Program-made: the position numbers and the translations under genes
Shown here: one piece after another, positions 3,389 through 36,933 of the stretch
How the letters are laid out: the number at the start of each line of letters is the position of its first letter
Position numbering within the stretch: the first letter of the stretch is position 1
Notes under the pieces: generated by a model
Told to the model about the DNA's origin: nothing
Databases searched by the model: none
The model's input: the letters and a program-made list of their open reading frames with translations, nothing else
IMG/VR virus record: IMGVR_UViG_3300017991_000064
Span: 1-64,000 of that record
From: a virus
Direction: 5' to 3' (one strand)
DNA length: 64,000 nucleotides

Positions 3389-5185
3389 TTATATTATTTG
3401 AGATTTCTTTGCATCGCGTTGTTCACGAAGTTGGCGTAATCTACCACCGTGAGAGGCAGCCTTTGCTTTCTGGTGATCATCTGCAGTTACTTCAGTAACA
3501 ACCCCCATCGCTATATATTTATCAATGAGACCCAGCTCACTCTTCTTCAAAACAAATTTCGTCTCACCTATGTATTGATCCCTACGATTCCAATGAAAGA
3601 TAACTTCCTCGATGGCAGTATCAATCTGCTTCTCCCTTTCCCTACGTTCATGTAGTTTAGATTTAGGTTTCCTAGATTCAACAGGTTCACTTCCACCCTC
3701 AGCTTCTGCCTCAGCCTTCTCCTGTTCCAATTCAGTCCTCGTCTTCTCTATGGATTTCAACAGTTCATCAAAACCTGGAATCTTAAGGAACATAGCATTG
3801 ATGACCTTAATGAGATCAACCTTCTTTACCTCAGCAGTTTCTTCATCTACCAATCCCAACTCTGTAAGGAGTCCTAATGTTGATGATGCTGCTTCTAGAG
3901 AACTAATAAGTGCAGACTTCCTTTCCTCATCCTCAGCGGTAGATATGGTAGCCATCTGGATATCAAAATCATTTCTGAGATGACCTTTACCAATAGCATA
4001 AAGATGGAGAACAAATAGATCACGTAGGAATTTGCGATTGCAGGATTGAACTCTTTTGACAGCCTTAGCAAATCTGATCTCTAACCTAGTAAGTGATGAT
4101 TCTCCAATACCACCAGGTAGAGTTTCTTCAAGACCTAGGAAAGCCTTCGGTGTACGAAGTGCTCCGTATAGTTTACTTCTGAAGTATTCAATGTCAACGA
4201 TTTCACGAACATCTGCTTCACCACCAAGGGTGGTTACATTGAGGTTTCCCTTCTCTTCAAAGATGGGAACAAATACCCTTCTGATCATATCGAATTGTTT
4301 CGACTGCTGATCAAAGGTTTTAGGATCATTAAGATTTATGAAGTCATCTGTAGCAAAAGCTTCTTTCATCTCTGCTACTAAATCTTTAGCGTCCGTAGGA
4401 GTTAAACCTGTACAGTTAACACCGATGACCTCTTTCATTGGTGATCGTGTAATACGTGCAATCACCATTATGATCTCGAGGAGATTCAATACTTTGTATA
4501 TCTTCCTAGCATTATCAAGAACAGATACACCATAGTCAGCCTTTACCTTGTACTTCTTTCCCCTCCAATCAAACTGCACAAAGTTCCAGTAATCTTTCTT
4601 CTTAGGTTTTGAGAATGGAAGTTTGTAGTGATAGAAGTCTCTGGCAGCATAGAACTGACCATCGTAGTGATAACCCAGAACATAGTTACCTATGGATGCT
4701 TTCGAAACATCGCCTGGATGAATTTGAGTATCGATGAATTCGATTCCTCTATTGTCATCTCCGTAAAAGATCTCAACGAACATATCCCCGTAGAGACAAC
4801 CATTATAACAAACATCTGGGAGAACTTCATATAAATTGAGGCGTCTACAGAATTGTTCAAACTCTCCACAGAGAAATTCGTTATCTGACACGATCCAAAA
4901 GGATTTGCCAGTTTCATAACTAATCTGTGTTGCTTCCTCTGCATATAACTCTAACGCTGAGGAGATAATAGAATCTTCCAACATCCTATCATACTCTTTG
5001 TAGAGGTGTTCACGTCCATACTCAATTCCAAGGTAGGACTGAACCTGTTGCATGATATTGTCAAATTTTGGAATGGACGGTGGTGGACCCTGTGGATGTT
5101 GATCCTCTTTCTTAGGAGCTCTATCCACGAACAACTTCTCTTTTAGGCCTCGGAAGAAGCCTGAAAAACCTCTACCTCTACTCAT
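3389..5185 (-). CDS. Portal vertex protein, T4 gp20-like
   Basis: A 598-residue dodecameric portal through which DNA enters the prohead and to which the tail attaches. The T4-type pattern is clear: an N-terminal basic segment, an IIS-SALELYAEEA region near residue 70, NGCLYGDMFVEIFYG near 140, and the conserved FRSKLYGALRTPKAFLGL block near residue 330 followed by LPGG. The C-terminus is a long charged helix. An ATG lies at 5200, but GAGGTG sits eight bases before the ATG at 5185 (MSRGRGF), so 5185 is the better start. The terminase is far away on the other strand at 48296. The transcript probably begins near 5595 and carries a structured leader. Confidence 0.92.
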   Translation of the reverse strand: MSRGRGFSGFFRGLKEKLFVDRAPKKEDQHPQGPPPSIPKFDNIMQQVQSYLGIEYGREHLYKEYDRMLEDSIISSALELYAEEATQISYETGKSFWIVSDNEFLCGEFEQFCRRLNLYEVLPDVCYNGCLYGDMFVEIFYGDDNRGIEFIDTQIHPGDVSKASIGNYVLGYHYDGQFYAARDFYHYKLPFSKPKKKDYWNFVQFDWRGKKYKVKADYGVSVLDNARKIYKVLNLLEIIMVIARITRSPMKEVIGVNCTGLTPTDAKDLVAEMKEAFATDDFINLNDPKTFDQQSKQFDMIRRVFVPIFEEKGNLNVTTLGGEADVREIVDIEYFRSKLYGALRTPKAFLGLEETLPGGIGESSLTRLEIRFAKAVKRVQSCNRKFLRDLFVLHLYAIGKGHLRNDFDIQMATISTAEDEERKSALISSLEAASSTLGLLTELGLVDEETAEVKKVDLIKVINAMFLKIPGFDELLKSIEKTRTELEQEKAEAEAEGGSEPVESRKPKSKLHERREREKQIDTAIEEVIFHWNRRDQYIGETKFVLKKSELGLIDKYIAMGVVTEVTADDHQKAKAASHGGRLRQLREQRDAKKSQII

Positions 5186-5266
5186 TATTTTACACCTCAA
5201 TTAATGTTCGGAAAATGTTTAATGGGGATTTAATGTGGGCGAATGCCCAATGAATGTAATGAAAGG
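5186..5266 (-). promoter_or_regulatory. Portal 5' leader between structured RNA and start codon
   Basis: No gene is visible. The stretch holds a small hairpin (GGGC GAAT GCCC near 5238-5249) and the GAGGTG ribosome site of the portal. It joins the structured RNA at 5267-5511 to the portal start. Confidence 0.5.
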
Positions 5267-29346: not shown

Positions 29347-30309
29347 ATGAAATCGATTAAATCGTCCTTTGAGAAGTACCAAGAGAGTCCCAGGCTTCAT
29401 TCCTCATCACTCTACATGACTGCCAAACTTAATAGCGGACCACCTAAGGGCCGAGTAATAGAGATATTCGGGCAGGAAGCATCTGGAAAAACTTATGTAG
29501 CACTGGACCTGGGTGTTCAGGGTCTACGAGAGTATAAGAAAGCAATACTTCGCTTTTATGATTGTGAGTTTGCTTTTACTCATGATTTCATCAAACCCCA
29601 TATCAACAAACCCTATATGGATCGATTCTTTCTTCATCAGAATAATGTAGCTGAACAAGTGCTCCCTGAGATTGAGAAAAATATGAAGAAGGATATAGAG
29701 AAGGGTTTCATTCCCATCGTTATTGTTGACAGCATAGCAGCACTAGCTACCGATGCAGAGATGGGTATGGAGGAATATGAAAGGAAAGCAAACTTTGATT
29801 TCCAAAAGTTCATGGGGTTGTTCCTAAAGAAGAATATCGGTACGAATATCAGACACGGTTGGTTAATTCTTATTAACCAGGTTCGTACCGAGATTTCCAT
29901 GAATAAGTTCGTCAAAGAACACCCGGATGGAATTGTTACCCCAGGTGGTAAAGCAATTAGATTCTATGCTTCACTTAGACTCTACCTGAAAGCAATGAGT
30001 AAATCAAAAATGAAAAAAGAATTTGGCAAGAAGGTAGATTCATATCATGGTATCAGAGTTAAGATTGAGAAGACCAAGTTCGGAAGGAAAACTACCTTCT
30101 ACATGAAAGTGAATGAGGACCTTCTTCTAGATGCTCATCATGGACTGGATGAACTATTGACAGAGGCTGGGGTTATCATCTCTAGACAGAAGGGTCTTTA
30201 CTCTCTACGAAATAAACCGGATAAGAAGTATCGTTGGAATCAACTGTGTCAGATGCTTTTAACTGATAAGAACAAACCAAAGGTTCTAAAAGCTCTAGGT
30301 CTTCAATGA
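29347..30309 (+). CDS. RecA/UvsX-family recombinase
   Basis: 320 residues. The Walker A motif is EIFGQEASGKTYVAL (~39-53), Walker B is IPIVIVDSIAALATDAEMG (~121), and a later LILINQVRTEISMNKF plus PGGKAIRFYASLRL match RecA loop and L2-adjacent segments. It catalyses strand exchange and recombination-dependent replication. AAGGAG is nine bases upstream of the start. Length is typical, and neighbours (exonuclease, SSB) fit a recombination module. No intron or intein interrupts it. Confidence 0.92.
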   Translation: MKSIKSSFEKYQESPRLHSSSLYMTAKLNSGPPKGRVIEIFGQEASGKTYVALDLGVQGLREYKKAILRFYDCEFAFTHDFIKPHINKPYMDRFFLHQNNVAEQVLPEIEKNMKKDIEKGFIPIVIVDSIAALATDAEMGMEEYERKANFDFQKFMGLFLKKNIGTNIRHGWLILINQVRTEISMNKFVKEHPDGIVTPGGKAIRFYASLRLYLKAMSKSKMKKEFGKKVDSYHGIRVKIEKTKFGRKTTFYMKVNEDLLLDAHHGLDELLTEAGVIISRQKGLYSLRNKPDKKYRWNQLCQMLLTDKNKPKVLKALGLQ

Positions 30310-30359: not shown

Positions 30360-31373
30360 ATGTCAAAGAGCAAGAAGAAGAAGGGAAAGAAGAAGGGAAA
30401 CTCCGCTTATGAAAGAGCAATGGGAGCTTACCAGAAACTCAGAGAGCAGGGTAAGGGAAGATATAAAGAGGTACTGAAGAGTCTTCCTGTTGGGTCTACT
30501 TATCTGAAGATCGGAGACTGGAATGAAGCATCCTGCGGTTTCTACGAGTACCTTCCTTTCCATCAAGTAAAACAAGGTTCCAAAGAGTTTCCTCAGCTCT
30601 GTCAGAGTTTTTTCGAAGAAGAATGTGTTCAGTGTGAAGAGGGTAATACTAATACCAGAACAAAGTATGCTGTGATTGCCCTAGTGAAAAACAAGAAGCT
30701 GGGTTTGAATTTCGATAAACCTAGGCTTGTCCTCCTGACTCAGAAAGCTATGGTTCAGCTTAACACTCTTTTCTTCGGTGGAGATGAGGAAGATGATGAC
30801 GATGATCTTGACAAGCTCTACGACTTTGATGAGTACATCAATACTGAACGCAAGAGCAAGATCATTAAGATCACTAGAGTTGGAGAGAAGAAAAACGATA
30901 CTACCTATACGGTAAAACCGATTGACGACAAGATGCAGACCTTTGACAAGGAAGCCATCGAACTCCTCCAGGAATGGATCAATAACAGTGATGAAAAGCT
31001 CGAAGCTCTGTATAGAGTAACTGATGACGATACAGAGGATGATGACGATGAAGATGAGGGAAAGAAGAAAAAGTCGAAGAAGAAACCAAAGAAGGGAAAG
31101 AAGAAAGTAAAAGATGAAGAGGACGACGACGATGAGGACCTCGATGATCTTGTTGATGATGAGGGTGATGATGACGACGACCCGGATGAAGAAGAAGATC
31201 TAGACGAGGATGATGATGACGACGAGGATGAAGAGGAGGAAAAGCCTAAAAGCAAGAGGAAGAAGTCAAAGAAATCCAAGGACAAGAAGAAGTCAAAAAA
31301 GAAGAAACGCAACAAGGTAGATGAGGATGACGACGATGATGAAGACGATGATGACATCGATTTGGAGGATTAA
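30360..31373 (+). CDS. Single-stranded DNA-binding protein, gp32-like
   Basis: 337 residues. N-terminal basic segment, then an OB-fold-like core: SLPVGSTYLKIGDWNEASCG and YLPFHQV, with a Cys pair (CVQC) and His/Cys candidates for a zinc knuckle like gp32. The last ~110 residues are alternating Asp/Glu and Lys runs, a long version of the acidic tail that SSBs use to recruit partners. The gene lies just after RecA. Identification rests on layout and context more than on a diagnostic motif. Confidence 0.6.
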   Translation: MSKSKKKKGKKKGNSAYERAMGAYQKLREQGKGRYKEVLKSLPVGSTYLKIGDWNEASCGFYEYLPFHQVKQGSKEFPQLCQSFFEEECVQCEEGNTNTRTKYAVIALVKNKKLGLNFDKPRLVLLTQKAMVQLNTLFFGGDEEDDDDDLDKLYDFDEYINTERKSKIIKITRVGEKKNDTTYTVKPIDDKMQTFDKEAIELLQEWINNSDEKLEALYRVTDDDTEDDDDEDEGKKKKSKKKPKKGKKKVKDEEDDDDEDLDDLVDDEGDDDDDPDEEEDLDEDDDDDEDEEEEKPKSKRKKSKKSKDKKKSKKKKRNKVDEDDDDDEDDDDIDLED

Positions 31374-31375
31374 GC

Positions 31376-32107
31376 ATGAGGTTGTTTGATAATACTAATG
31401 AACTCATTAGCGAAATCCTTCGAGACTTCCATGAGATTGCAACAACCAACGACCAGGTAATAACTAAAAGTTTCCAGAACCAGGTGGGGTCTTTTGAAAC
31501 CAAGGAACTCTTCAACTACTTCTACTCCTTGTTAAGTTTTGAGGATATCAAAGAAATCTTTCTCTTTGATGCTAGAAACCTAGCATACTGTGAGCAGGAG
31601 TTCAAAGACAGGTTATGTGAATGCCTCAACCCGGGAGAGTCATACAAACTTCGTCCAGATGTCTGGAAACCATTCCTTAATGCTGATGGTCTCAATGGCA
31701 GATTCGATTATACCTACTCTGAAAGAATCGGTGGTACCAGAGTGGGTCATATCATCAGAACATTGAGCAATGATTCTGGAAGTAGACAAGCATTCCTTCC
31801 CATCTTCTGGCAAACAGATATGATCTTTACTGGTGGTGCTCAAAGGATCCCATGTTCTCTGGGTTATCAGTTTAACATCAGGCAAGGTAAACTCCATCTC
31901 ACGTACCTGCAGAGAAGTTGTGACTTTGTGACCCACTGGGCGAATGATGTTTACATGGCCTGGAAGATGTTAGAGTTCGTAGCTGAACAACTCCAGGTTC
32001 CCGTGGGTTACTTCCATCACATGATCATATCTTTCCATATCTACAAAACGGACGTGGAAAGATTCCAAGAAGCATACTACACACTCATTGGTCAACAACA
32101 GAGCTGA
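31376..32107 (+). CDS. ThyA-fold dCMP hydroxymethylase-like enzyme
   Basis: 243 residues. From Cys160 to Tyr223 the sequence aligns without a gap to E. coli thymidylate synthase: PC (nucleophile Cys160), then exactly 19 residues on YLQRSCD (Arg180, Ser181, Asp183), and FHIY (His221, Tyr223). The position of TS Asn177, which selects dUMP, is Asp191 here (WANDV). T4 dCMP hydroxymethylase has Asp at this place, so dCMP is the likely substrate and 5-hydroxymethyl-dCMP the likely product. The PCH histidine is Ser. A separate ThyX (51091) supplies dTMP. Neighbouring pyrophosphatase, kinase and polymerase fit a modified-cytosine pathway. Confidence 0.7.
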   Translation: MRLFDNTNELISEILRDFHEIATTNDQVITKSFQNQVGSFETKELFNYFYSLLSFEDIKEIFLFDARNLAYCEQEFKDRLCECLNPGESYKLRPDVWKPFLNADGLNGRFDYTYSERIGGTRVGHIIRTLSNDSGSRQAFLPIFWQTDMIFTGGAQRIPCSLGYQFNIRQGKLHLTYLQRSCDFVTHWANDVYMAWKMLEFVAEQLQVPVGYFHHMIISFHIYKTDVERFQEAYYTLIGQQQS

Positions 32108-32156
32108 TACAATATGAGTAAAACTAAAGACAACACAAGGGGAGGCAAATAATAAG

Positions 32157-32531
32157 ATGGGAAAGAGCAAAAAGATCAATACCAGATCCACTCCCAGTAC
32201 TTATGTAGTAAGTGCTAAGCTCATGCCAATTGATGGCCAGTATGCTAAAACTAAGCTAACAGGCATGGAGTTTATGGATCGAATCAAAGAGTTACTCGAC
32301 AATGATATAGAGGTCGAGTTCTTTATAGGACATGAGAACACACTTCAGTTCCTATCAGAACAGTTAGGAATAGATGATGAGGTCATACAAAAGAAAGGCC
32401 GAAAGGTACGACTAAGGAGTGGAGATACAATGTTTGTCATCACTCTGAATAAGCACCACGAGTCTAAGGATGATCCCATTGAGAAGTATGATTACTCAGT
32501 GATCACATTCACAGCACCAAAGAACAAATAA
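32157..32531 (+). CDS. DUF1874/STIV B116-like protein, possible AcrIII-1 ring nuclease
   Basis: 124 residues. It matches the layout of the viral B116/DUF1874 family: TYVVSAKLMPIDGQYAKTKL strand region, helix, then FIGHENTLQFLSEQLG, R-x-V-x-L, SGD, FVITLNK. The AcrIII-1 member of SIRV1 degrades cyclic tetra-adenylate using His47 in an IGH-x-x-T motif and Glu88. Here His59 occupies the same motif, and Glu102 is at or next to the Glu88 position. If active it would shut off type III CRISPR signalling. GGAGG lies about 12 bases before the ATG. Other family members have no known activity. Confidence 0.55.
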   Translation: MGKSKKINTRSTPSTYVVSAKLMPIDGQYAKTKLTGMEFMDRIKELLDNDIEVEFFIGHENTLQFLSEQLGIDDEVIQKKGRKVRLRSGDTMFVITLNKHHESKDDPIEKYDYSVITFTAPKNK

Positions 32532-32637
32532 CCCAAGCATTCGGCATCCTGGGGGATGATTCAACTTGGCTCTAGCGGGATCATCTCTCATGGGTGTTGT
32601 TTGCCTAATAAGGAGGTGTATTATTGATTACAGAGAT

Positions 32638-33321
32638 ATGACCAAGGTGGTTGATAAGGAACTTAGAGATGGACTCAAACTAACCTTTGACTTTCTTTTT
32701 CAACGATCGGTAGCAATGCTAGAGGACTACAAACAAATTGAGAAGTGGCCAAGGACCTTGGAGAAGATGTCAATATCATCCAACCATAAACAAAAGATTG
32801 TGAAAGAATGCATCTATCGAGTCTTCGAAGAATTATGTGAAGCTACCGCAGAAGAAGAAAACAGTGGTAAATTTACTGAAGAGCTAGCTGATGCCTCATT
32901 GTTCTTCATGGAGATGTTAGTTATTCTTGGTTTTAATACCACTGAGAGTCTGGTAGAGTTAGTCGCTAAGCGATCTGAATTTTACCTGCATGAATCTGAT
33001 CCTGACGATGAAGAGATAACTCCAGAGAATTTTGTAGAGTCTATGCGTTACTACTATCATATGGCAGTAGACCCAACCTGTGAGTTTTCTTCTAGTGCTT
33101 TTGAAATGCTAAGTCTCCTCGGTAGGTTTGGAAATGCATTGAAGAACAGACCCTGGAGACAAACAAAAGTACTAACGGATGAAAGCAAAGCATTGACTCT
33201 ATTAGCAGATTCTATTCTAACCTTCTTTGGTTTCATAAGGTTGTTCGGGGGAGTAGATATTCTGAAGTTCATCTACATGAAACAGAAGGTTAACGAGTTC
33301 AGAATCAGATCAAACTATTAA
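32638..33321 (+). CDS. All-alpha NTP pyrophosphatase (MazG/dUTPase-like)
   Basis: 227 residues if the ATG at 32638 is used; AGGAGG at 32611-32616 is better placed for an ATT at 32623, so the exact start is uncertain. YRVFEELCEATAEEEN and FTEELADASLFFMEML give an intact ExxE...ExxD metal site. T4 dCTPase (gp56) belongs to this superfamily. Next to a dCMP hydroxymethylase-like gene, hydrolysis of dCTP/dUTP to the monophosphate is a natural inference. The second half looks like a degenerate repeat of the fold. Confidence 0.65.
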   Translation: MTKVVDKELRDGLKLTFDFLFQRSVAMLEDYKQIEKWPRTLEKMSISSNHKQKIVKECIYRVFEELCEATAEEENSGKFTEELADASLFFMEMLVILGFNTTESLVELVAKRSEFYLHESDPDDEEITPENFVESMRYYYHMAVDPTCEFSSSAFEMLSLLGRFGNALKNRPWRQTKVLTDESKALTLLADSILTFFGFIRLFGGVDILKFIYMKQKVNEFRIRSNY

Positions 33322-33442: not shown

Positions 33443-34150
33443 ATGTTTCTTATTTGGAGCGGACCAAGTGGATCAGGAAAAACACACAAGATCCAACAGA
33501 TTGAGGGGTGCAGAGTTGAAAAGTTTGATACCAGAGGTTGCTTAAAAACTAGATTCAACATCATATCTCTTTCTCAGTATCAGAAGATGATCATTTCAGA
33601 TACAGAAAATTTTCTGAAGATCCAGGAAGAAATCATGGAAGAAAGGTATCGAATTTTCAAACGATACATGGGGGAAACATACGAACATGAGCGAAACCGT
33701 GTTGTATTCGATCGTGGCCTGTTTGATAATCTGGTATACCTCCACGACTACAACATTCGTATCCAATCCAAGCTCAGTCTGATTGAACATACCAACAGTA
33801 GACTTCAAATCCTTCACATAATGAACAATCTACTTGCTAGAGCTTATAACCTCATCATCAAGCTTAATTCAGTATCTTATCACTTCATTTGCAAACCACA
33901 TCCTGACAATTTCAAAGACGGAGATTCCTTCAGAGATATTTCTTTTGAGGACTCTCTAAGACTCTTTAATCTGTACATCTATATGGCAGACACACATGGT
34001 ATTTCATATCAGATTCTGGAACGTGGTAATGAGGACCTTGAGATCCTACCTGAACCAACTAATGAGTTCATGAAGATTCATGATGCACTACGTGACGAGA
34101 TAGATATGAGAAAAGATATAGAAAGAAAAAGAAGGTTTAACATCGAATAA
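33443..34150 (+). CDS. P-loop nucleotide kinase
   Basis: 235 residues. Walker A is WSGPSGSGKTHK (residues 5-16); VVFDRGLFDNLVYL (~88-101) matches the DRG-type motif of the AAA_28/NadR-like and deoxynucleoside kinase families. The C-terminus is charged and helical. AAGGAG precedes the ATG. Lying between the pyrophosphatase and the polymerase, it could phosphorylate hydroxymethyl-dCMP as T4 gp1 does, but the motifs alone do not give the substrate. Confidence 0.7.
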   Translation: MFLIWSGPSGSGKTHKIQQIEGCRVEKFDTRGCLKTRFNIISLSQYQKMIISDTENFLKIQEEIMEERYRIFKRYMGETYEHERNRVVFDRGLFDNLVYLHDYNIRIQSKLSLIEHTNSRLQILHIMNNLLARAYNLIIKLNSVSYHFICKPHPDNFKDGDSFRDISFEDSLRLFNLYIYMADTHGISYQILERGNEDLEILPEPTNEFMKIHDALRDEIDMRKDIERKRRFNIE

Positions 34151-34152
34151 AC

Positions 34153-36933
34153 ATGATTAAATACAAATTCAAAAAATCCATCTGCAAGCAGTGCTTAATG
34201 TATCCTGCTAACTTCAATCCTATTCGTGGTATAGGAAATCCTAAAGCAGACATCATGTTCATTGCTGAAACTCCCTCGAACGATGCGAAAGCTGTGAATG
34301 AAATCTTTTCGGGTCGTTCTTCACAATTCTTATTTGAGATCCTCTCAGAACTCTTCTCTATCCCTGTGGAGGATATCAAATCAAAACATTCTCCCTTCTA
34401 CTTCACAAACATCGTCAAATGTTATATTCCCAACAAATATGATGTTGAGGACAAAAAACTAAAAGACATTGCTGTCTCTTGTAGCGATTACGCTAAACAA
34501 GAGATAGAAGAAGTTGATCCTAAGATAGTTGTTCTACTAGGAAGAGCTGCTCTTAATGGTATCCTAGGTGGGGCTACAAAGGTAGAATCAAAAAGGGGTA
34601 GGATTCATACACAAGAGATCAACGAGAAAGAGTATAAGTTTGTACCTGTTTTTCACCAAAGCTACGTATTCAGAAACCCAAATGTACTTCAGATGTTTAT
34701 CAAAGATCTCGAGTTAATGAAGAGGTATGTAGATGGTGATCTGGAAAAAGAGGAATTAGATTACACCATGGTAGATAATAAGAAATCGTTTAACAAGATG
34801 ATAACCTTTCTTGAAAGAAAACAACCAGATCAATCATCCTGGGATGTAGAAACTAGTTCATTTGATTTTGCATCTGGGAAAGCTGTAATGCTCTTGGGTA
34901 TGTCATTCTACAATAGCGAACTGGATGAAGAGTATAATTTCATGCTTGACATAAAACGTTTTAAGTTTCGAAAAGGGTTAACAGCAGATAGAATCATACC
35001 AGTACTGTTAGATAGCATGGGTGGATACTGTAAGTATCTAATAGGTCAAAATTTTAAGTATGATATGAAACACCTCTTCAATTATGGTTTCCCCAAACGT
35101 GGACTCAAAAGCAAAATTTTAGATACTATGATAATGTCATATGTCCTGAATGAAGAAAGATTCGGAAGGTATGGTAAGCATTCATTAGAGAACCTATTGG
35201 GTTTCTACTTTCCAGAGGCGTTAGAATACAAGGTTTCCAAAGGTGAGGAAGCTAAAGAAGATCGAAAGAAACGAAATAAAGAACTCAGCAAGGAAGAGAA
35301 GAAACAAAAACAAAAGGAATCTAAGGTTGATGTGGATAAGGGAAACCCCTTTGATGACCCTGATTACTGTATGAACGATGCTATCTACACTGGACGGATA
35401 GCTAGGATCTTCCTTAAGGAGTTCGAAGAAAAGAAGAACAAGAAGCTACGAAGATTATACTTCAAACTATACGAACCGGCGTTGAAATTAATGACTCGGG
35501 TAGAGTATCGTGGAGCGAAGATAAATGTAAACTATCTCTTAGAATTAGATGAAAAGATGAGTGCAGAAAGAGATGACTACGAAAAGAAACTCCGAGGTTA
35601 CCTTTATCGTATTTTTGATGATAAGAAGTATGCTAAAGGAATTAACTTCAATTCGTCTCCACAGAAAAAGGTCCTCTGCTTTGAGAAGCTGAAGCTACCA
35701 ATAGTTCATTATACGAAGAGTAAGAAAAAAGGTGGAGGAAAGAAAAAGAAAAGTCCTAGTACAGGAAAGGATGCATTTGAAAAATGGGGTATCCTTCTGA
35801 ACAAGGGAGAGCTATTTCAGTGTTGTGATAGAAAGTATACGAAGGACCAAAGGAAGTATACAGCAAAGTTCATCAAGCTCTATAACAAATATAGTAGAGT
35901 TAAACATCTCCACAAGAACTTCGTCATTGGCATTCAGGTTCTTCTCGACAAGAATAATAGAATACATGGAACCTTCAAGCTCGTTGGAACAGTAACTGGG
36001 AGATTGAGTTCTGCTAGGCCAAATCTACAGAATATTCCCAGGACCACAACCAATAGCGAAATAAAGAAGTTATTCATTCCCAGTCATAAAAAATGGTACA
36101 TTGTTGAGGTGGACTACTCTCAAGCTGAATTAAGGGTCCTTGCCCACTTCTCTCAATCCAAAACTTTGATCGAAGCTTTCACACAGGGATTCGACATCCA
36201 TCTATTCGTAGCTTCAGAGATGTATGGTGTTCCATTTAAGGAAGCTGAAAAGATCTACTATAATAAAGACCTGGAAGGAACTGATTTACATATCAAATGG
36301 AAGAAGTGGAGAAAGAGAGCTAAAACGATAGTTTTCGGTATTGTCTATGGAGTTGGTCCAGATACACTAGCTGAGAACCTATCTGATCCTGATGTTGGAG
36401 AAATTGTTTCCAGAGAGGAAGCTATTGAGTTCATTGAGATGTTCTACAGAAAATTCCCTGAGATCAGAGATTACATTGAGCGTTGTATTAAATTTGTACG
36501 ACGACATAAGTACATCGATAATGTTCTTGGGAGACGAAGACACCTACCAAACATTAATAGTGAAGCTAAGAACCTAGCTGCCGAATCTGAAAGAAAAGCT
36601 GTTAATTCTCCGATACAGGCTACCGCCAGTGACTTTGCTTTGTTCTCAGCGGTCCTGATCGATAAGTATATTCATCGGTATAAACTAAGAGCCCATGAGT
36701 TTACTACCGTCCATGACTCTATCCTGTATGATGTACACCTTGATGACATCCTTAAGCTACATAAGATTGTAGATCATGTAATGCCTAATCCGCCACTTAA
36801 GAAATACTTTAAGTCAGAATTTACAGTTCCGCTAGACTATGGTATTGAGGTGGGCCCAGTCTGGGGAGAGATGTACGGTGATCTGAAGAAGTTTGTAGCT
36901 AAGGAAAAACAGAAATATAAAGAGATAGCATAG
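34153..36933 (+). CDS. DNA polymerase I family fused to family 4-like uracil-DNA glycosylase
   Basis: 926 residues. Residues 1-~195 resemble a 4Fe-4S uracil-DNA glycosylase: CKQC at 11-14, IMFIAETPS, FTNIVKC, a fourth Cys (VSC), VVLLGRAAL and VFHQSYVFR. A 3'-5' exonuclease follows (WDVETSS, GQNFKYDMKHL, YCMNDA). Then come family A polymerase motifs A (VEVDYSQAELRVLAHF), B (RAKTIVFGIVYGVG) and C (TTVHDSILYD). It replicates the phage DNA; the glycosylase part may read or remove uracil ahead of synthesis. I recall UDG-like N-termini on SPO1-type polymerases but could not check. No intron or intein is seen. Confidence 0.9.
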   Translation: MIKYKFKKSICKQCLMYPANFNPIRGIGNPKADIMFIAETPSNDAKAVNEIFSGRSSQFLFEILSELFSIPVEDIKSKHSPFYFTNIVKCYIPNKYDVEDKKLKDIAVSCSDYAKQEIEEVDPKIVVLLGRAALNGILGGATKVESKRGRIHTQEINEKEYKFVPVFHQSYVFRNPNVLQMFIKDLELMKRYVDGDLEKEELDYTMVDNKKSFNKMITFLERKQPDQSSWDVETSSFDFASGKAVMLLGMSFYNSELDEEYNFMLDIKRFKFRKGLTADRIIPVLLDSMGGYCKYLIGQNFKYDMKHLFNYGFPKRGLKSKILDTMIMSYVLNEERFGRYGKHSLENLLGFYFPEALEYKVSKGEEAKEDRKKRNKELSKEEKKQKQKESKVDVDKGNPFDDPDYCMNDAIYTGRIARIFLKEFEEKKNKKLRRLYFKLYEPALKLMTRVEYRGAKINVNYLLELDEKMSAERDDYEKKLRGYLYRIFDDKKYAKGINFNSSPQKKVLCFEKLKLPIVHYTKSKKKGGGKKKKSPSTGKDAFEKWGILLNKGELFQCCDRKYTKDQRKYTAKFIKLYNKYSRVKHLHKNFVIGIQVLLDKNNRIHGTFKLVGTVTGRLSSARPNLQNIPRTTTNSEIKKLFIPSHKKWYIVEVDYSQAELRVLAHFSQSKTLIEAFTQGFDIHLFVASEMYGVPFKEAEKIYYNKDLEGTDLHIKWKKWRKRAKTIVFGIVYGVGPDTLAENLSDPDVGEIVSREEAIEFIEMFYRKFPEIRDYIERCIKFVRRHKYIDNVLGRRRHLPNINSEAKNLAAESERKAVNSPIQATASDFALFSAVLIDKYIHRYKLRAHEFTTVHDSILYDVHLDDILKLHKIVDHVMPNPPLKKYFKSEFTVPLDYGIEVGPVWGEMYGDLKKFVAKEKQKYKEIA

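Follow-up and report, generated by a model that had tools for sequence, protein, structure and literature searches.

Viral AcrIII-1 proteins, such as gp29 (ORF114) of SIRV1 and Tsac_2833 of phage THSA-485A, are ring nucleases that degrade the CRISPR alarm signal cA4; they belong to the DUF1874 family (Pfam PF08960), together with the Crn2 part of the Marinitoga Csx1–Crn2 protein. The same fold is found in STIV B116 and in AFV3-109. The AFV3-109 dimer forms a cradle whose conserved contacts are made by the residues equivalent to H47, R66, R85 and E88; E86′ hydrogen-bonds the histidine, and the cavity is shut by the loop joining strand 4 to strand 5 (PMC1796864). The THSA-485A protein abolishes cA4 immunity in vivo (PMC7371418). 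A 2025 survey recorded AcrIII-1 in 36 of 28,114 phage genomes, and dropped matches that lacked highly conserved residues (PMC12409355).

Here we describe a protein of this family, P0001, encoded in a window of 64,000 nucleotides (positions 1 to 64,000 of IMG/VR virus record IMGVR_UViG_3300017991_000064, which comprises 106,874 bases). As judged from alignments, P0001 retains the catalytic histidine, whereas most of the residues common to every other relative examined are missing from it. It is most likely a divergent protein of anti-defence function, binding and perhaps cleaving a cyclic oligoadenylate.

Gene and family assignment

The gene occupies positions 32157..32531 (+), as an uninterrupted reading frame of 124 amino acids that opens with ATG. 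A strong ribosome-binding site, GGGGAGG (32139..32145, +), lies 11 nt 5′ of the start codon, the opposite strand of the interval is crowded with stop codons in frame, and the base composition is close to that of the adjoining genes. This is a genuine gene.

P0001 is almost certainly homologous to the DUF1874 proteins. It matches PF08960 with 27.8 bits (E = 2.9 × 10−6; curated cut-off of 26 bits), the match spanning only profile positions 23–84 of 101. It also matches phrog_5063 (E = 2.9 × 10−4), which can be equated with the DUF1874 family because ten DUF1874 proteins, that of phage THSA-485A included, match it. For a family-specific profile, motif patterns spanning the H47 and R66 regions were used to gather 94 non-identical relatives from genomes in IMG/VR and GTDB. 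With P0001 left out of the profile, P0001 scored 26.3 bits and ranked first among the 593 ORFs of the window, the next-best ORF reaching at most 3.6 bits and the best of 5,000 shuffled copies of P0001 reaching 10.1 bits. A comparison of P0001 with the relatives using hhalign gave a probability of 95.6%.

Sequence identity to the relatives is low in every case (12–28%). BLAST-type searches with the protein alone detected no relatives among phages, IMG/VR and GTDB genomes, and none was found in 398 genomes of one bacterial phylum, a search that was run without a positive control. Canonical DUF1874 members are matched by PADLOC models, but P0001 is not. NCBIfam gave no match for P0001 and is uninformative here, since a canonical member also has no true match. 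P0001 also has a weak match to phrog_2749 (E = 0.014); considered as an alternative family, phrog_2749 had no match in 15 other records of phages or viruses, and canonical members do not match it. The best profile match of P0001 is with DUF1874.

An AlphaFold2 model of P0001, computed with 77 relatives, has a pLDDT of 79.4; prediction from the single sequence gave a model too poor for use (pLDDT of 49.8). The model matches PDB entries 2j85 (Z-score of 11.8), 8y7f (Z-score of 11.6) and 6scf (Z-score of 10.7). Across B116, AFV3-109, SIRV1 AcrIII-1 and Csx1–Crn2 the Z-scores range from 8.6 to 11.8 (11.8 for STIV B116 and 10.2 for AFV3-109), whereas the next unrelated fold scores 3.7. The alignment behind the model is made of canonical relatives, and the fold match therefore supports the assignment without being independent proof of it. 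The DUF1874 assignment proposed in a preliminary description of this locus is thus upheld by the Pfam score above cut-off, with which the profile, the shuffled controls and the fold agree, and the predicted structure matches the fold of SIRV1 gp29, the comparison proposed in that description, and of Crn2.

P0001 resembles the AcrIII-1 proteins of SIRV1 and THSA-485A in fold family, length, the GHxxT motif, a histidine at the catalytic position and viral origin. It differs from them in a basic N-terminal extension of approximately 13 residues and in a three-residue insertion before strand 4. The lid between strands 4 and 5 comprises 15 residues, compared with 19–20 in most relatives. The THSA-485A protein, which is active in vivo (PMC7371418), also has a short lid, so lid length is not diagnostic. 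Among PDB entries, the best sequence match is with Marinitoga Csx1–Crn2 (8y6z, 8y7f and 8y7g; E = 0.002; fold Z-score of 11.6). In contrast to that protein, P0001 is encoded by a stand-alone phage gene outside any CRISPR locus, has no CARF/HEPN fusion, and has altered partner residues around the histidine.

Active-site residues

The sequence FIGHENT of P0001 contains the IGH-E-x-T motif noted in the preliminary description. Codons 58–63 (G-H-E-N-T-L; 32328..32345, +) include the putative catalytic residue His59 (codon 32331–32333), which aligns with H47 of SIRV1 ORF114, as had been proposed, and with H495 of Csx1–Crn2. In phmmer alignments, the IGHE of P0001 lies opposite IGHD of SIRV1 ORF114 (PDB entry 2x4i) and IGHE of 8y6z. 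The H495A substitution in Csx1–Crn2 abolishes cA4 cleavage, and the crystal structure of this variant (8y7g) has an alanine at the position aligned with His59. Residues G58, H59 and T62 are invariant in the 78-sequence alignment.

The residues that accompany this histidine in the family are highly conserved. R66 is present in 94 of 94 relatives, R85 in 93 of 93, E88 in 92 of 93 and N6 in 90 of 91; the conservation of H47 and R66 in this set is partly due to selection by the motif patterns, outside which R85 and E88 lie. A second set, of 11 relatives, was recovered by the Pfam model alone and thus not chosen by motif; in it N6, S43, T50, R66 and R85 occur in all 11 and H47 occurs in 10. The exception at H47, a PF08960 relative from a bacterial genome, has tyrosine in place of the catalytic histidine and aspartate in place of E88, and retains R66 and R85, a pattern opposite to that of P0001.

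P0001 has Ser19 at N6 and Phe55 at S43, both near-invariant cradle positions, and, at further near-invariant positions, Phe56 at A44, Leu63 at A51, Lys80 at N65 and a non-glycine residue at G89. The position of the invariant R66 falls in codons 81–82 (Gly-Arg; 32397..32402, +), with Gly81 aligned and Arg82 one residue off. The position of the invariant R85-x-x-E88 falls in codons 99–103 (K-H-H-E-S; 32451..32465, +). Here R85 corresponds to His100, or to Lys99 with a one-residue gap, and E88 corresponds to Ser103 in the phmmer, 78-sequence and hhalign registers and to Glu102 in one MAFFT register. In the ungapped alignment with the SIRV1 protein, R85, E87 and E88 lie opposite His100, Glu102 and Ser103, respectively. 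The substitution of R85 by histidine given in the preliminary description is reproduced in this alignment, in which Glu102, previously placed at or beside the Glu88 position, lies beside it and not at it.

No register gives P0001 an equivalent of R66, R85 or N6, and E88 is recovered by just one alignment of the four. By these comparisons P0001 is an outlier among its relatives at near-invariant positions. AFV3-109, by contrast, keeps the conserved cradle residues (PMC1796864). Arg82, Lys99 and Glu102 of P0001 are each displaced by a single residue from the expected position, and may form a re-registered yet working site.

Genomic neighbourhood

Genes of DNA metabolism adjoin the P0001 gene on both sides and on the same strand. 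On the 5′ side are a RecA/UvsX-like recombinase (29347..30309, +; PF00154, phrog_97) and a thymidylate synthase-like protein (31376..32107, +; PF00303 at 50.2 bits, phrog_160). The Pfam match of the latter covers its C-terminal half only, and its closest relatives (37–38%) are from unannotated human-gut phages. The product of the intervening gene (30360–31373), located where an SSB might be, has a very long acidic and lysine-rich C-terminal tail, with no PHROG match and no family. On the 3′ side is a nucleotide pyrophosphohydrolase-like protein (32566..33321, +; phrog_12184, E = 3 × 10−16), the true start of which is probably further downstream. It is followed by a tRNA-Leu, a P-loop AAA_28 kinase-like protein (33443..34150, +; PF13521, E = 6 × 10−10) and a uracil-DNA glycosylase (UDG) domain fused to a family A DNA polymerase (34153..36933, +; PF03167, PF00476). 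A primase, helicases, SbcC/D and a sigma factor are encoded 3′ of the fusion. The setting in a replication operon, as first described, is confirmed by the adjoining thymidylate synthase, pyrophosphohydrolase and UDG–polymerase genes.

The nearest matches of the UDG–polymerase protein, in which the UDG domain is N-terminal, include SPO1-like Bacillus and Lysinibacillus phages. The portal protein (3389–5200, −) is T4-like, and is nearest to those of Listeria LIS04 and Bacillus SP-15. These affinities suggest a Bacillota host.

The description of this placement as unusual was overstated. Other phage DUF1874 genes are located near RecE/Bet (phiFN37), Gam (phiBB) or unknown genes, and in a survey of approximately 100 viral DUF1874 loci a PolA gene lies within 5 kb at one locus and a helicase gene at four, all of archaeal viruses. 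Since genes of the family elsewhere lie near recombination and replication genes, the location of the P0001 gene fits early expression, and alone is neither remarkable nor evidence of a metabolic role.

Possible functions

It is plausible, at slightly less than an even chance, that P0001 is a counter-defence protein working like AcrIII-1, ring cleavage included. From the established fold family, the GHExT motif with its histidine at the catalytic position and the location of the gene, P0001 would be a small homodimer of B116/DUF1874 fold, probably expressed alongside the genes with which a large tailed phage replicates its DNA. The cradle of the dimer would bind a cyclic oligoadenylate, probably cA4, made by the Cas10 of a host type III CRISPR system, and His59 would serve as the general acid that helps to break it, lowering the alarm signal. 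This reading is favoured by the PF08960, phrog_5063, 94-relative profile, hhalign and fold matches, by the location of His59 at the H495 position, and by the charged residues Arg82, Lys99 and Glu102, one residue from R66, R85 and E88. It is weakened by the alteration of R66, R85, E88, N6 and S43, which are near-invariant in the relatives, and by the lack of a homologue near enough to show selection on the motif. Because R66, R85 and E88 are altered, cleavage could be slow, could depend on the displaced Arg82, Lys99 and Glu102, or could be directed at another ring. Of the original designation as an AcrIII-1-type ring nuclease, the family and the catalytic histidine stand; the function is not established, given the changes at R66, R85, E88-G89, N6 and S43, and the differences at R85 and at N6 and S43 lower the case for this enzyme class.

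The replacement of R66, R85, E88, N6 and S43 in a protein that retains the fold and the motif would also agree with P0001 binding cA4, or another ring (other cyclic oligoadenylate sizes or CBASS signals), with little or no cleavage, and sequestering it. Poor cleavage would follow from the loss of the arginine and glutamate partners of the histidine, and phages are known to use sequestration (discussed in PMC12409355). The retained GHExT motif fits an enzyme better, however, and losing N6, S43 and R66 may also cost ligand contacts; we regard a sequestering role as possible, although doubtful. A more speculative reading, to which we assign a low probability, is that large tailed phages possess a B116-fold branch of their own, represented by P0001, in which the general-acid histidine is kept and the remaining active site is rebuilt to handle an immune signal other than cA4 (a ring of different size or one of CBASS type), as early counter-defence from the replication operon. 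That P0001 has been recruited to DNA or nucleotide metabolism, binding nucleic acid or a nucleotide and working with the thymidylate synthase, NTP-pyrophosphohydrolase, kinase and polymerase, is unlikely. Its gene lies between those genes on the same strand with short spacing, residues 79–87 form a basic stretch (KKGRKVRLR), and AFV3-109, which shares the fold, was shown to bind dsDNA in solution (PMC1796864). The DNA binding of AFV3-109 was, however, published before the ring-nuclease activity of the family was known, and the neighbourhood is shared with no relative: the approximately 100 viral DUF1874 loci are rarely near such genes, and in five phage stretches that encode a relative of the thymidylate synthase or of the polymerase, that place holds no DUF1874 gene.

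Most invariant residues are gone from P0001, as they would be in a decaying AcrIII-1 remnant that has lost its function. The intact reading frame, the strong ribosome-binding site, the core fold positions and catalytic histidine, and a composition like that of the neighbouring genes make decay very improbable. Least probable, to a degree that we consider negligible, is that the resemblance to DUF1874 arose by chance: the 12–28% identity and the BLAST-type searches without a significant match would allow it, but the Pfam score above the curated cut-off, the shuffle control and the fold match oppose it.

If P0001 does still cleave a cyclic oligoadenylate, or bind one, then residues that have been treated as defining can be lost from the AcrIII-1 active site, and phage ring nucleases would consequently be undercounted. 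A protein like P0001 could have fallen to the conserved-residue filter of the 2025 survey (PMC12409355). If it does neither, P0001 would be an example of the viral B116 fold put to another use.

Other B116-like and DUF1874 proteins

Erwinia jumbo-phage proteins (Kwan, phiEaH2) were among the BFVD fold matches, and no profile relation was found for them. For phage Kwan, the fold search lists proteins of 133 and 136 amino acids as B116-like, without sequence similarity. The Kwan ORFs L158:6516–6914 and L158:11261–11668, equated with the listed accessions from length only, have no GHxxT motif.

The PADLOC 'Csx16' model PDLC01147 matches canonical DUF1874 phage proteins (L004:5001–5324, E = 1 × 10−19; L007:2905–3213, E = 1 × 10−10), and PADLOC Csx16 calls may therefore include Crn2 and AcrIII-1 proteins. 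One viral record of 104 kb carries two DUF1874 genes (L133 and L134) that encode identical proteins, located approximately 39 kb apart on opposite strands.
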